64,000 bases of DNA, taken from assembly GCA_030616775.1 (NCBI GenBank), contig JAUWWQ010000001.1:1-64000 (forward strand), given 5' to 3'. The notes beneath the pieces were generated by a model. It made no database searches and was not told the origin of the DNA. It saw only the letters and a program-made list of their open reading frames with translations. Source of the stretch: Planctomycetota bacterium (GTDB lineage Bacteria > Planctomycetota > Phycisphaerae > UBA1845). Below are positions 50,001 through 57,097 of this stretch, piece by piece (the stretch's first letter is position 1; every line of letters starts with the position of its first letter). The position numbers and the translations under genes were made by a program.

Positions 50001-50195
50001 ACCCCGGGTCCAACAGAATAGCTGCATACCGGGGCTCCATTCATCCCACGTACCGGGGCACCGGGAGCGAGGCGCTCGCTGCAACCGCGGATTTTGCGTT
50101 CCTGCCCGTCGGGATTACAATACTCAGGCGATTTGCGCGGTGTCTCCGGCCTTGTGAGCCCGTTGCAGACGCAATGGAGAAATTGGGAGCGTACC

Positions 50196-52007
50196 GTGAA
50201 CAAGAACATCGTAACGTTCATCGTGTCGATGGGAGCCATCGCGATGTGCGGCATCGGGTGGTTCCTGCTGCCAGTGCTCCAGGACGCTCGTCAGATCGTA
50301 GAGTCCGAAGCGTCGGTTCAGTTGGAGCGTGCCCGGCGGTTGCTTGACAAGTACAACGCGAGTCTCTCCTACGGGGTCCTGCTGACGGATCAACTTGCCG
50401 ATCAAGGGCTTACGTCCGACCCGGAAGATCTTTCAGATGATGTGGCCGATGACTACCAGGAGTTGCACGCGGCGATGTGGGAAGCCTATCCGCCGGTTGA
50501 TTGGCCGGAAGGAGGGATGCCCAGACCCGCCCGGGCAGGGTACGGCAATCTTCCCTCCCAGATTCGGACCGGGCTGGCCAAGACGGCTGGACTGATCCGC
50601 AAGAACGAGGAGCTACTGAACGACGCGGAGCGCGCGGTGGACCGGGCACTGGCCGTCACGAAAGGTGGAGAGTCGTCACGATCCCACGCGGAGGCCAATC
50701 GTCTCAAAAGCGTGATTTTCTATCACAAAGGTCTGGCCAAACGCCTTCAGGCACAGCTTAAACGTCGTGAGAGCCATCGGCACCGCCGCGAACTGATCGG
50801 GCTGGCGAGCGATGCCGTGGAATCCCAATCCATGAGCACGCTCGTTGCCGACAGCGAGATCCGCCAACAGATCGACGCTTTGGGGGGTAAAGCAGCCGAG
50901 CTGGAAGCGGCCATCGGTGAGGACCGCAGGGCCTTGGCGTCTCTCGATGCCAGGATTGATGATCTGGAAGCGCGATTGCTCACTGCCGAAGAGCGGGCCG
51001 AACAAGCTCTCAAGGGCATGGATGAATTTAAGGCCAAGGGTGTCGACTTCTCTGATCCGGACGGTGCTGAGGAGTTTCGAATAGGGTTTGAGGAGCAGGA
51101 CCGTATTTACCGCAAAGCGGCTCGCGAGGCTCATGCAGTCAAATACGGCACCTATTCTCACTTCGATGAGGACTCGGCCACCGGACCTGCGGTCGAACAC
51201 GGGCTCCTGCATTTCCAAGATGAGCGGGCGGTGCTGGCCGCCACGATCGATGGTCAAGTACGAACCCTTGAGGATCTGCGCACGGATGCAGCACGGCTTG
51301 AAGGTATGGGAAAGGCCTACCAGGCGACCCAGGACCAGGCGGTACAGAGCGTTGCCGGGTCCGCGGCTGCGGCGTCCGAAGCCTATACGGAGCTGAATCG
51401 TATCGACTCGGAGGCCTACGTCATCGAGGATGAAGCGTTCGAGCTTTTCGATCGATCCCTGCGGACCGCAAAGCAAGCTGCGGGTTACGCTGATCGCTGG
51501 CTCTACGATGCCCGCGAGCGGACGCAAGGGCTTTCACAGGAGGCCCAGCAACGGTCCGCCTATGGCAGCCGTCTCCGCGATGGGTGGATGGGTGGATACG
51601 TGGCCGCCCTGGAGGCGGATGCGCACCTGGCCAAAGCGTGGATGCACTACGCCAGATACGACGCTTACACGCAGAACATTGACCTCTTGGCAAAGGTTGC
51701 CCAGCCCCTCCAACTGAGCGAGGCGGACGCGGAGAGCGAACGAACCAAGGCCGAGAAGGCCCATGACGCCGGCATCGACGAAATCAAAGCAGCCATGGAT
51801 GTTCTGAAACGCGTTCACGACAAGACCGAGCGTCATTGGACCGTCACCGCTCAGGCTGCCGGGGCGACTTATCTTCTTGTACTGTTCGGGCATGAGGATT
51901 ATGTGAGTGAGGCGATCGAAGCCTACCGCAATGCCGTGCAGGGCCGGGAGGATGCAGCATTCGCTCAACCCTTTGTTTCCCGGTTAAGCCGTCTGGAAGA
52001 ACGGTAA
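50196..52007 (+). CDS. Membrane-anchored coiled-coil protein, unknown function
   Basis: A 603-residue protein with one N-terminal membrane helix (IVTFIVSMGAIAMCGIGWFLL) and a mostly helical, charged rest, with clear coiled-coil segments (ALGGKAAELEAAIGEDRRAL, ARIDDLEARLLTAEERAEQAL). The C-terminal 180 residues may hold an independent alpha-helical domain. No enzyme motif is seen. GTG at 50196 with GGGAGC upstream; the frame before it is not protein-like. The neighbouring genes do not suggest a role. Confidence 0.7.
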   Translation: MNKNIVTFIVSMGAIAMCGIGWFLLPVLQDARQIVESEASVQLERARRLLDKYNASLSYGVLLTDQLADQGLTSDPEDLSDDVADDYQELHAAMWEAYPPVDWPEGGMPRPARAGYGNLPSQIRTGLAKTAGLIRKNEELLNDAERAVDRALAVTKGGESSRSHAEANRLKSVIFYHKGLAKRLQAQLKRRESHRHRRELIGLASDAVESQSMSTLVADSEIRQQIDALGGKAAELEAAIGEDRRALASLDARIDDLEARLLTAEERAEQALKGMDEFKAKGVDFSDPDGAEEFRIGFEEQDRIYRKAAREAHAVKYGTYSHFDEDSATGPAVEHGLLHFQDERAVLAATIDGQVRTLEDLRTDAARLEGMGKAYQATQDQAVQSVAGSAAAASEAYTELNRIDSEAYVIEDEAFELFDRSLRTAKQAAGYADRWLYDARERTQGLSQEAQQRSAYGSRLRDGWMGGYVAALEADAHLAKAWMHYARYDAYTQNIDLLAKVAQPLQLSEADAESERTKAEKAHDAGIDEIKAAMDVLKRVHDKTERHWTVTAQAAGATYLLVLFGHEDYVSEAIEAYRNAVQGREDAAFAQPFVSRLSRLEER

Positions 52008-52117: not shown

Positions 52118-52146
52118 TTGACCGAGCGGTTCTGCCGAGCGATAAT
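52118..52146 (+). promoter_or_regulatory. Strong candidate promoter for the sigma-factor gene
   Basis: TTGACC (52118-52123), 17-base spacer, GATAAT (52141-52146). Five of six bases match consensus in each box. The leader to the start codon would be about 180 bases, with no gene in it. Confidence 0.6.
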
Positions 52147-52330: not shown

Positions 52331-54001
52331 ATGCCCAAGTTCTTTAACAGTGACATCGCTGACCTGGCTAATCAACTGACGCGATCGCCGCGCCGGTTGA
52401 GGATGGAGCAGATCCGCGGGATCGAGAAACTGCTCGAATTGACTGAGCCGGACCGGGCCTATCCGTTCGAGTTCGTCTGTTACCACATTACCAAGTACCG
52501 CAAGCGCGGCCCGGTGACGACCGGCTTTTCGATCCCCGGCAAGGCGCTGATCAGCGACCTTGTCACCATGGCCGAAGTGATCAGCCGCAGGGCAGCCGTC
52601 CCGGTCAGCGAGCTGCAGGAGCCGTACAAAACCCATCAGCAGATCGCCGAGGAGCTGGATGTCAGCACCAAGACGATTCGACGTTGGCGCGACCGCGGTC
52701 TGATGGGCATTCGCATGGTGTTTGAAGACGGCGTGAACCGCCTAGCCTTCCCGCAGCGAATCATCGATCGGTTCGTCGATCGGCACAGGGACATGGTGGC
52801 GAAGGGCACGTCGTTCAAGCAGCTTACCGCATCGGAGCGCAATCGCATCGTGGAACGCGCCCGAGAGCTTCGGTCGCAACGCCCGGTCAAGCTACACGCG
52901 GCTGCGCGCCTGATTGCGGAAGAGATGGGGCGGGCCGTCGAGACCATCCGCTACACGCTGCGGCGGTATGATGAGGCCCATCCTGACGTAGCATTGTTCA
53001 GCAACAACGGGCAAGAGCCCTGGTGCGAGCGCCAACTGGCCATTTGGCGCTGTCATGAGGCAGGCGAATCGACCGCTTCAATCGCCCGGGCATTTGAGTG
53101 TCCGGTGGAGGAGATCGAGCAAGTCCTGCGTCAGGTTCAGGTGCGCAAGTGGTCGCAGTTGCGCTGGGATTACATTCCCCACGAGTTGTGGGACGCCCCC
53201 AATGCCGACGCGATCATCCTGGCGGCGCCGGAACCACCTGCTGACAACGCTCCTGCGCCGCGGCTTCCCAGAGACACACCTCCCTACCTGCGATCGCTCT
53301 ATCTGACGCCCCTGCTGACGCGTGAGCAAGAGCACGATCTGTTCCGCCGATACAACTATCTCAAGTACAAGGTGGCCAAGATCTTGAAAGGGCTCGAGCC
53401 GGAGCAGATCACCGAATCGCGCTACGAAACGCTTCGCTGCCTGGTGGAGCACTTTGAGTCCGTCAAGCAACGGATCATCCGGGCGAATCTGCGGCTGGTG
53501 GTGAGCATCGCCAAGAAGCACGTCGGCTGGTCACCCAACTTCTTCGAAGTGATCAGTGACGGTAATATGTCGCTCATGCGGGCTGTTGAGAAGTTCGACC
53601 ACACCCGGGGCACCAAGTTCAGCACCTACGCCACCTGGGCGATCATGAAAAACTACGCCCGGTCGATCCCCGAACAACGTTACCGCTGCTCGCGATACGT
53701 TACCGGCCAAGACGAGCTGCTTGAGGCAGCACCCGACCGTCGGGCCGCGCCTGCTAGCGAAAGCGATCGACGCCACATCCGTGAAGCGATCGCAGCCGGC
53801 ATGGGCGCGCTGGATGAGCGCGAGCGCGAGGTCGTCAGCAGCCACTTCGGGCTGGGCAGCAAGAACGGGGCGTTGACCCTGGAGCAGATTGGCCAACGAT
53901 TCGGGGTCACCAAAGAGCGTATTCGACAGATCGAGCGGCGGGCGCTTTCCCGGCTGCGCGAAGTGCTTGCTCCATCCCTGGCTGACGCCCTGGCCGACTG
54001 A
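52331..54001 (+). CDS. Sigma-70 family factor with a long N-terminal HTH region
   Basis: A 556-residue protein. The C-terminal half is a sigma factor: region 1.2/2 at about 318-440 (LYLTPLLTREQEHDLFRRYN, IRANLRLVVSIAKKH, FFEVISDGNMSLMRAVEKFD, GTKFSTYATWAIMKNYARSI) and region 4 at about 490-545 (LDEREREVVSSHFGL, LEQIGQRFGVTKERIRQIE). Region 3 appears missing. The N-terminal 310 residues contain a MerR/HTH-like element (QQIAEELDVSTKTIRRWRDR, about 101-120) followed by GLMGIRMVFEDGVNRLAFPQ, and a second HTH-like stretch (STASIARAFECPVEEIEQVL). It could bind DNA on its own as well as with the polymerase core. ATG at 52331. Confidence 0.88.
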   Translation: MPKFFNSDIADLANQLTRSPRRLRMEQIRGIEKLLELTEPDRAYPFEFVCYHITKYRKRGPVTTGFSIPGKALISDLVTMAEVISRRAAVPVSELQEPYKTHQQIAEELDVSTKTIRRWRDRGLMGIRMVFEDGVNRLAFPQRIIDRFVDRHRDMVAKGTSFKQLTASERNRIVERARELRSQRPVKLHAAARLIAEEMGRAVETIRYTLRRYDEAHPDVALFSNNGQEPWCERQLAIWRCHEAGESTASIARAFECPVEEIEQVLRQVQVRKWSQLRWDYIPHELWDAPNADAIILAAPEPPADNAPAPRLPRDTPPYLRSLYLTPLLTREQEHDLFRRYNYLKYKVAKILKGLEPEQITESRYETLRCLVEHFESVKQRIIRANLRLVVSIAKKHVGWSPNFFEVISDGNMSLMRAVEKFDHTRGTKFSTYATWAIMKNYARSIPEQRYRCSRYVTGQDELLEAAPDRRAAPASESDRRHIREAIAAGMGALDEREREVVSSHFGLGSKNGALTLEQIGQRFGVTKERIRQIERRALSRLREVLAPSLADALAD

Positions 54002-54113: not shown

Positions 54114-55916
54114 ATGGTTGTGGCCATGAACGCTTTGGGAGTCATTCTGGCGCGCGCCGGCAGCAAGGGGCTGCCCGAGAAATGCATGCGCAGCCTCCTC
54201 GGCAGACCGATGATCGAATACACGTTCGACCACGTTGCAGCCAGCCGGCTCCTGACCGCCGCGGTCCTTACAACCGATTCAGAGCCTGCTACAGCGATCG
54301 CCCGACGAGCCGGGATTGAGGTTATCGACCGCCCGGCCGACCTCGCTAGTGACGCAGCCACCGTAGACGCTGCGGCTCGTCACGCTGTTGAACGCTGGGA
54401 AGGCCAACACGGCATCCGCACGGACATCGTTGTCCTCCTATACGGCAACATCCCCGTTCGCGCAGACGGCCTGATCGACCAGGCCATCGAACATCTGATC
54501 CATACCAGAGCGGATTCCGTACGCAGCGTCGCACCGCTGACGAAGCATCATCCCGATTGGCTTCATCGGCTAGACGGTGACCGGATGTCGCAGCTTCGGC
54601 CCAATAGTGTCTATCGACGGCAGGACCTCGAGCCACTGTATTACCATGACGGCGCTGTGGCAGTGGTGACCCGGGAAGCGCTGTTTGCAGCGCTGGAACA
54701 ACCGGACGACCATCAGGCATTTCTGGGCCGGGATCGCCGGGCTTTGGTCCAACACCCCCAAGACGCCGTTGATATTGATGAACCGATTGATCTTGATCTG
54801 GCCGAGGCGATCCTGCGACGGCGGGCCAGCGGGACGGCATCAAGACGCGACGAGGTGCAAGGTTTCCTCAAACCGGTGACAATAGGACGTCACCAAATCG
54901 GACCTGGTCAGCGCACGTTCATCGTGGCTGAGGCGGGTGTCAACCACAATGGTTGCCTCGATACGGCGCTTCGCATGGTGGATGTGGCGTCGGACGCCGG
55001 GGCCGATGCCGTCAAGTTTCAAATGTTTCGCGCAGCCGATCTGGTCACTGCCTCCGCCGCGACTGCGCGGTATCAGCAGGAGGGCTGCGGTGAGGATTCT
55101 CAGGCAGTGATGTTGGCCGGCCTTGAGCTTTCGCCTGATGCGTTTCGCCGGATCAAACAGCACTGTGACCGGTGCTCTATCATGTTTTTGGCCACGCCGT
55201 TCGGTCAGGCTCAGGTCGGGCAACTCGTGGAGCTCGACGTCAGGGCGATCAAGATCGCGTCGACGGACCTGACAAACGCTCTGCTTCTCGAGACGGCTGC
55301 GGCCACTGGGCTACCGATCATCTTGTCCACCGGGGCGTCAACGGAACCGGAGATTCAGACCGCTGTCGAGAGCTTACGCCGCATGGGGGCGACTGAACGT
55401 CTGATATTAATGCATTGCGTGAGCAGCTATCCGACGCCGATCGAAGCAGCCAATCTCAACGCCATTTCCTCGTTGGAGCAGACCTTTGGCGTTCCGTGTG
55501 GTTTCAGCGACCACACCACATCGACGCAGATCGGAGGCTGGGCGGTGACGGCCGGGGCTTGCGTGCTGGAGAAGCATTTTACGCTCGATCCGTCGGCACC
55601 CGGGCCGGACCACGCCATGTCGCTGGCACCTTCACAGCTCAAGGAATACGTCGCGGGCGTGCGCCGCATGGAACGGATTCTCGGCGATGGGAGGCTGGGT
55701 ATGACCGATCGCGAGGCGGAGGTGCGGGCAGTCGCGAGCAAGAGTGTTGTTGCTGCCGTGGACATCCCCGCGGGCGCGCGGCTCACCGCCGAGATGCTCA
55801 CGGTCAAGCGTCCCGGCACGGGCATCCCCGCCGGCGACCTGGGTTCTCTTAAAGGGCGCCGTGCGGCGGTCGACATTGTGTGTGACACGACTTTGTCATG
55901 GGACATGATCCGATGA
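54114..55916 (+). CDS. Fused CMP-sialate cytidylyltransferase / sialic-acid synthase (NeuA-NeuB)
   Basis: A 600-residue two-enzyme protein. Residues 1-240 are an NeuA/LegF-type cytidylyltransferase (GVILARAGSKGLPEKCMRSL; VVLLYGNIPVRADGLIDQAI; VDIDEPIDLDLAEAI). Residues 255-520 are NeuB/SpsE (FIVAEAGVNHNGCLDTALRM, GADAVKFQMFRAADLV, KIASTDLTNALLLE, ILSTGASTEPEI, GFSDHTTSTQIGGWAV, LEKHFTLDPSAPGPDHAMSL). Residues 535-600 are a SAF antifreeze-like domain (VVAAVDIPAGARLTAEML). It condenses a hexosamine with PEP and activates the product with CTP. The ATG at 54114 or 54126. neuC follows with an ATGA overlap. Confidence 0.92.
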   Translation: MVVAMNALGVILARAGSKGLPEKCMRSLLGRPMIEYTFDHVAASRLLTAAVLTTDSEPATAIARRAGIEVIDRPADLASDAATVDAAARHAVERWEGQHGIRTDIVVLLYGNIPVRADGLIDQAIEHLIHTRADSVRSVAPLTKHHPDWLHRLDGDRMSQLRPNSVYRRQDLEPLYYHDGAVAVVTREALFAALEQPDDHQAFLGRDRRALVQHPQDAVDIDEPIDLDLAEAILRRRASGTASRRDEVQGFLKPVTIGRHQIGPGQRTFIVAEAGVNHNGCLDTALRMVDVASDAGADAVKFQMFRAADLVTASAATARYQQEGCGEDSQAVMLAGLELSPDAFRRIKQHCDRCSIMFLATPFGQAQVGQLVELDVRAIKIASTDLTNALLLETAAATGLPIILSTGASTEPEIQTAVESLRRMGATERLILMHCVSSYPTPIEAANLNAISSLEQTFGVPCGFSDHTTSTQIGGWAVTAGACVLEKHFTLDPSAPGPDHAMSLAPSQLKEYVAGVRRMERILGDGRLGMTDREAEVRAVASKSVVAAVDIPAGARLTAEMLTVKRPGTGIPAGDLGSLKGRRAAVDIVCDTTLSWDMIR

Positions 55917-57097
55917 ACTCGACAAAACGTGGTCGGCGTACGCGCCGGATCGCGGTGATCACCGGAACGCGCGCCGACTACGGGTTGCTACGGTCCACCA
56001 TGGATGCAATCAAGAAGCAGGACAACTTGAGGCTCCAGGTGGTAGTGACCGGGATGCACTTGCTCCGCAAGTTCGGCCATACGGTCGATGAGATCGTCCG
56101 CGACGGATGGCACATAGATGCGCGGGTGAGAATGCAGACCGGCGACGATGGCCCATTGGACCAAGCGGCTGGTCTCTCGCGAGGCGTGTTGGGTATCGCC
56201 AAGTTCCTGGAACAAGCCAGGACGGACATCGTTGTCGTGCTTGGCGACCGAATCGAAGCGATGGCCGGCGCCCTGGCAGCCGTGACTACCGGCCGGTTGG
56301 TTGGACACATCCACGGCGGAGACATCGCACCCGGGGATTTTGACGACTGTCTCCGGCACGCCATTACCAAGCTGGCCCACGTTCACCTGACAGCAACACG
56401 GGCTGCACGACAACGGATCATTCGCATGGGTGAATCCGCCGATCGCGTACACTGGGTCGGGGCTCCGGGCCTCGATCGCCTCGTGCGTCTGGCCGGAGAG
56501 GCGAAGGGCCCACGGAAACGAACCGGTCACGCGCTGATCCTACACCATCCGATTGGCCGCAAGCCGGCCACAGAGCGGCGGGTGATGAACGCAATCTTGA
56601 AGGCCGTCGAAGAGGTCAGACTTACGCGGACGATCGTCTACCCGAACAGCGATCGTGGGCACACCGGCATTGTAGAAGCGATCGAGGTACACTGCCGACG
56701 CGTCGGCAACGGCGCGATCCAGGTCGTCCGATCGCTGGATCGTGACCGTTATCTGCGCATGCTCCTTGGCGCCGACGTGCTTGTGGGCAACTCCTCCAGC
56801 GGGATCGTTGAAGCAGCCGGCGCCGGCACGCCGTCGGTCAATATCGGTCCTCGCCAGCAGGGGCGGGAGAGAAACGGACGTTGGGTGGTCGACGCCGACG
56901 AGTCTCTGGCCTCAATCCGCGGGGCACTGCAAAAGGCCCTTCGCAAAAGGCCTATAATCGGAAGGGCTACCGTTTACGGCGACGGTCAGGCAGGGACGCG
57001 CATCGCACAAATCCTCGCCAAGCTCCCGCTTGACGAACATTTCCGGCGAAAGGTCAACACTTTGCTCCCGGTAGGTCAACCCAACCTAATCCGCTAG
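55913..57097 (+). CDS. neuC: UDP-N-acetylhexosamine 2-epimerase, hydrolysing (NeuC type)
   Basis: A 394-residue epimerase: RIAVITGTRADYGLLRSTM (about 17-35), VVVTGMHLLRKFGHTVDEI, VVLGDRIEAMAGALAAV, GHIHGGDIAPGDFDDCLRHA, VHLTATRAARQRIIRMGE, and VLVGNSSSGIVEAAGAGTPSV. These identify NeuC, which makes ManNAc (or a 2,4-diacetamido analogue) from the UDP-sugar. With the fused NeuA-NeuB this is a full nonulosonic-acid route from UDP-GlcNAc to CMP-nonulosonate, except for any sugar-modifying steps. The ATG at 55913 overlaps the previous stop. Confidence 0.92.
   Translation: MNSTKRGRRTRRIAVITGTRADYGLLRSTMDAIKKQDNLRLQVVVTGMHLLRKFGHTVDEIVRDGWHIDARVRMQTGDDGPLDQAAGLSRGVLGIAKFLEQARTDIVVVLGDRIEAMAGALAAVTTGRLVGHIHGGDIAPGDFDDCLRHAITKLAHVHLTATRAARQRIIRMGESADRVHWVGAPGLDRLVRLAGEAKGPRKRTGHALILHHPIGRKPATERRVMNAILKAVEEVRLTRTIVYPNSDRGHTGIVEAIEVHCRRVGNGAIQVVRSLDRDRYLRMLLGADVLVGNSSSGIVEAAGAGTPSVNIGPRQQGRERNGRWVVDADESLASIRGALQKALRKRPIIGRATVYGDGQAGTRIAQILAKLPLDEHFRRKVNTLLPVGQPNLIR

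Follow-up and report, generated by a model that had tools for sequence, protein, structure and literature searches.

Operator binding is normally the task of separate regulators and not of the sigma factor itself. In E. coli sigma70, the residues Q437 and T440 face position -12, and the substitutions Q437H and T440I alter -12 specificity (PMC2613000). A 567-aa protein of R. baltica, RB12251, has been described as a 'specialized sigma factor' that is repressed by heat, cold and salt (PMC2754498). Here we analysed a 64,000-nt stretch of DNA from a Planctomycetota bacterium (the window), in which a real open reading frame of 556 aa with an ATG start encodes a sigma-70-family protein (Table 1). 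The start and the domains are kept in its relatives. By length alone (567 versus 556 aa), RB12251 is a candidate orthologue. A literature search of open-access papers found no description of the family, and neither Pfam nor NCBIfam has a named family that covers it.

As the initial annotation had proposed, the sigma core lies at the C-terminus: Pfam placed Sigma70_r2 (PF04542) at residues 383-439 (1.7e-12) and Sigma70_r4 (PF04545), the main region-4 match, at residues 491-544 (1.2e-18, 66.8 bits), both over the Pfam cut-off. With regions 2 and 4 present, the protein belongs to the sigma-70 superfamily. The claimed loss of region 3 was borne out as well, since Sigma70_r3 is absent among the Pfam families listed for the window protein, although the same library detects it in two other sigma factors of this genome, namely RpoD (5e-22) and an RpoS-like sigma (3e-8). 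The linker between regions 2 and 4 has about 35 residues, mostly of very low pLDDT in AlphaFold2. RpoD-type models of NCBIfam begin to match at about residue 319, and the structure model aligns to SigA chains across about 300 columns, so that a region-1.2-like start is probably retained. The core is made up of this start, regions 2 and 4, and a short, ECF-like linker without region 3.

Table 1. Features of the sigma gene and its upstream region, in positions of the window.
Feature	Position	Strand	Basis
Conserved promoter TTGACC-N17-GATAAT (C-13, G-12), 184 nt before the ATG	52118..52146	+	Upstream alignments; pattern scan
Sigma-70-family protein, 556 aa	52331..54001	+	Open frame; Pfam r2 and r4; relatives in 194/198 class genomes
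N-terminal domain, residues 1-97, helices and short strands, no named family	52331..52621	+	AlphaFold2; fused straight to sigma core without HTHs in L169, L170
HTH1, residues 98-152, MerR/BldC-type winged HTH	52622..52786	+	Pfam; BldC 6ama E=5e-4; structural Z 6.5
HTH2, residues 165-217, tri-helical	52823..52981	+	HTH_38 in 19/24 members; three helices 167-216
HTH3, residues 231-277, tri-helical, resolvase/sigma-r4-like	53021..53161	+	HTH_7, CENP-B_N in members; PDB profile matches; helices 231-275
Region-1.2-like segment (probable), residues 313-345	53267..53365	+	NCBIfam match from 319; SigA structural alignment
Sigma region 2, residues 377-446, K/A at E. coli Q437/T440 positions	53459..53668	+	Pfam; residue census
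Linker replacing region 3, residues 449-482	53675..53776	+	No Pfam r3 listed; pLDDT <50 at 449-474
Sigma region 4, residues 483-548, RpoD-like recognition helix GVTKERIRQIE	53777..53974	+	Pfam; residue census

The layout of the N-terminus was the same in both AlphaFold2 runs, which had a mean pLDDT of 86 and 89.7. The N-terminus is predicted to comprise a small helical domain and three HTH modules, with a pLDDT of about 90. The MerR-like recognition helix and wing that had been read from the sequence were recovered in HTH1, where residues 99-151 are confidently modelled in the order beta-helix-helix-beta-beta-helix, that is, as a winged HTH; an HTH is thus present at residues 90-130. Pfam matched this module with HTH_23 (5e-11, residues 100-122) and with MerR, MerR_1, HTH_17 and others; the MerR and MerR_1 scores are under the cut-off, and the predicted fold agrees with a MerR-type winged HTH. 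The family profile matched the BldC-DNA structures 6ama and 6amk at an E-value of about 5e-4, and structural comparison of HTH1 with BldC covered 54 aligned residues at an rmsd of 2.5. Phage excisionase, terminase and MerR chains matched HTH1 in the same range as BldC, and we take such middling Z values to back the fold class of the modelled HTH1, not a specific function. The second HTH-like stretch of the initial annotation was also found, as an HTH_38 match at residues 192-212 within a tri-helical model; the third HTH, the extra N-terminal domain, the region-1.2-like segment and the near-universality in the class go beyond it. A Foldseek search with the N-terminus alone gave no match at E<=0.001. 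Identity of the N-terminus with an ordinary sigma region 1 or NCR was rejected, as no Pfam profile of region 1.1 or of the normal NCR matched. Homology of HTH2-HTH3 to sigma regions 3-4 was likewise rejected, a Z of about 6.5 with an rmsd of about 20 across two domains being too weak.

The recognition helices showed conservation values of 0.66 (HTH1), 0.62 (HTH2) and 0.55 (HTH3), compared with 0.69 for sigma region 2.3-2.4, 0.64 for region 4.2 and a protein mean of 0.52. Those of HTH1 and HTH2 are on a level with sigma 2.4 and 4.2 in this respect, and that of HTH3 is somewhat lower. These values bear on whether the N-terminal domains mainly control the sigma factor itself, by autoinhibition, dimerisation, or partner or RNA binding, like region 1.1 of RpoD. 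Their N-terminal position would suit such a role, and modular regulatory input would also fit the variants in which the sigma core carries only the N-terminal domain (L169, L170) or only HTH3 (L171). However, few parts of the protein are as conserved as the recognition helices, and this agrees better with contact to DNA; we consider control of this kind unlikely to be the main function of the N-terminal domains.

With a profile of the N-terminus, matches were found in nearly all genomes of the class, mostly in single copy and almost always without stops. Phylum-wide, 114 of 294 genomes matched the profile and 52 of 294 a single-sequence query. A scan of GTDB genomes returned 575 relatives, and the 80 listed were all from Planctomycetota, apart from one titled only 'bacterium'; plasmids and phages gave no family match. 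As far as these searches reach, the sequence data suggest a lineage-restricted family, in line with what had been supposed at the outset. A mobile-element or phage origin was rejected because of the lack of plasmid or phage matches and the near-universal presence in the class. The window's genome encodes a canonical RpoD separately, along with an RpoS-like factor. It also encodes two further sigma-like proteins in which no region 3 was matched; one of them (L002) has, as a weak match, the short motif that follows HTH3. Since the gene is mostly single-copy across the class genomes and stands beside an ordinary RpoD, the family looks like a conserved alternative sigma factor of unusual architecture. 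A sigma-derived transcription regulator that has lost its sigma function would be another explanation, and three loci (L012, L014, L173) do retain the N-terminus while region 2 is degraded and region 4 is missing. In contrast, regions 2 and 4 are intact and the core contacts conserved in the window protein and the great majority of the family, and we regard a loss of sigma function as highly improbable.

We then compared the residues that read -12. The sequence set used for AlphaFold2 held 64 sequences, the window protein and 63 genome_contigs loci, mostly Pirellulales. Here E. coli W434, Q437, A438 and T440 correspond, with hardly an exception, to A, K, N and A, with K at the Q437 position in 63 of 64 sequences and A at the T440 position in all 64. 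The K/A replacement is also found in most other family members. The RpoD of the same genome retains Q and T at these positions, and the -35-reading helix of the family stays RpoD-like.

Upstream of the gene, we found TTGAC-N17/18-CGATAAT, with G and not T at -12, at 17 of the 21 loci compared, namely that of the window and 16 of those from 20 relatives in the family or order. When 20 more genomes of the order were added, 11 had TTGAC-N16/17-CGATAAT before the gene, and a permissive pattern revealed TTGAC-N17 with G or A at -12, never T, in 8 of the others. A second family copy in one genome has the same promoter, and in an anchored alignment upstream conservation is largely confined to it. Across 24 family genomes, TTGAC-N-CGATAAT occurred 3.2 times per genome (reversed-pattern control 0.3) and TTGAC-N-TATAAT about 5.0 times (control 0.4). 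Given about three sites per genome, the exact CGATAAT sites at the sigma gene are far above chance. No conserved operator or HTH site was seen within 70 nt upstream of the promoter. A regulon derived from strict CGATAAT sites was rejected, as only four orthologous pairs with TTGAC-N-CGATAAT were obtained and their functions were unrelated. At L212 and similar sites, TTGACC-N16-CGATAAT lies before an integrase-like gene.

Taken together, these findings lead us to favour, at roughly even odds (about 0.5), an alternative sigma factor with its own DNA-binding array, which reads a -12G promoter, including its own, and whose HTHs contact further DNA. Its holoenzyme would recognise TTGAC at -35 and C-G-A-T-A-A-T at -13 to -7, and reading of the promoter of its own gene would amount to positive autoregulation. 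The HTHs may bind further DNA near the target promoters, and these contacts could compensate for the lost region 3 contacts and restrict promoter choice. Promoter selection, which the initial annotation had offered as a possibility, thus gains indirect support from the altered -12-reading residues and from the conserved -12G promoter before the gene. A less probable explanation is that the protein is a real alternative sigma factor acting elsewhere, with the -12G promoter read by RpoD or another sigma and the HTHs serving as regulatory input. RpoD could read GATAAT, which is near its consensus; CGATAAT promoters also lie before a few unrelated genes that share no clear theme; and the Pirellulales sigma genes are without this site. 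Yet among the promoters of these genomes the T-12 TATAAT class is the commonest, whereas at the sigma gene G-12 (or A) is maintained throughout the order, and RpoD itself retains Q437/T440. As the Pirellulales lack the promoter despite the same K/A residues in the protein, the autoregulation that we favour would not be general.

Of the 22 Pirellulales loci checked, 21 have tRNA genes after the sigma gene, nearly all in the order Thr-Tyr-Gly-Thr-(tuf)-Trp, and behind them are tuf, secE, nusG, rplK, rplA, rplJ and rplL (named from the sequence by eye). In L042, L043, L047 and 18 further Pirellulales loci, the sigma gene is directly upstream of tRNA-Thr/Tyr/Gly/Thr-tuf-tRNA-Trp-secE-nusG-rplKAJL. 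The same arrangement occurs in some other genomes (G048, G227, G238, G205) and is absent from the window, where the gene is followed by a likely neuA-neuB fusion and neuC-like genes (54114-57097, named by eye), conserved in a few relatives. Upstream of the sigma gene, at 50094-52007, is a gene for a 637-aa coiled-coil-like protein, whose family is found in the loci of 14 of 21 relatives.

About half of the Pirellulales loci carry a leader RNA 25-90 nt before the start codon, consisting of an outer stem, a small GCGA...UCGC hairpin and AGGGAAC (for example L084:7930-7992 and L096:7929-7991). Searching with a regular expression, we located this element ahead of the start codon in 31 of the 63 loci; with a covariance model, about 32 of the searched loci had it upstream of the gene. 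Because RNAalifold alone predicted no structure from the first leader alignment, the structure was proposed by hand and covariation was then counted. The outer stem covaries strongly, with 10 of 11 pairs changing on both sides and far lower values in shuffled and slid controls. In seven loci, Rfam at the gathering threshold matched only tRNAs, and for one stretch a relaxed threshold yielded nothing beyond a weak match to PreQ1 at another place in the leader. Strong leader matches in 12 genomes were single and adjoined the sigma gene where coordinates allowed checking; the leader RNA is apparently specific to this gene. A more speculative extension, which we hold only tentatively, is a planctomycete-specific sigma-plus-activator that would combine an altered -10 element (CGATAAT) with operator contacts by the HTHs and with self-control, and would be tied in the Pirellulales, by position and by the new leader RNA, to the translation/RNA polymerase cluster.

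In summary, three HTH modules fused to a region-3-less sigma core, in a core gene of a whole class, would be a new promoter-selection architecture, and the -12G promoter with the matching residue swaps yields a concrete prediction that can be tested, in a phylum where little work has been done on transcription. With RpoD/SigA (group 1), the window protein shares regions 2 and 4, the region-1.2-like segment, the RpoD-like 4.2 helix and the structural alignment to SigA. In contrast to the group 1 set of regions 1.1, 1.2, 2, 3 and 4, it has neither region 1.1 nor region 3 among its listed matches, both of which are in the genome's RpoD; it has K and A in place of the conserved Q437 and T440, and three HTHs in front. 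ECF (group 4) sigmas, including those with extra domains, likewise have regions 2 and 4, a short linker and no region 3. However, an ECF sigma has only these two regions in about 200 aa, with an ECF-type region 4, whereas the window protein has 556 aa, a region-1.2-like start and an RpoD-like region 4; its best PF08281 stretch falls within HTH1, and its extra domains of DNA-binding type are N- and not C-terminal. HTH1 resembles the BldC/MerR winged HTH in fold and recognition helix (KT-x-x-RW motif), but BldC is a small stand-alone protein and HTH1 is fused to a sigma factor. MerR proteins continue into a long dimerisation helix and a C-terminal effector domain, and HTH1 is followed instead by two more HTHs. 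MzaA, the MZA defence-associated sigma factor, is also a large sigma-70 protein with extra N-terminal sequence and gave the best NCBIfam match (NF041931), yet only the sigma core matches, at 149 bits against a curated cut-off of 800, which places the window protein outside that family.
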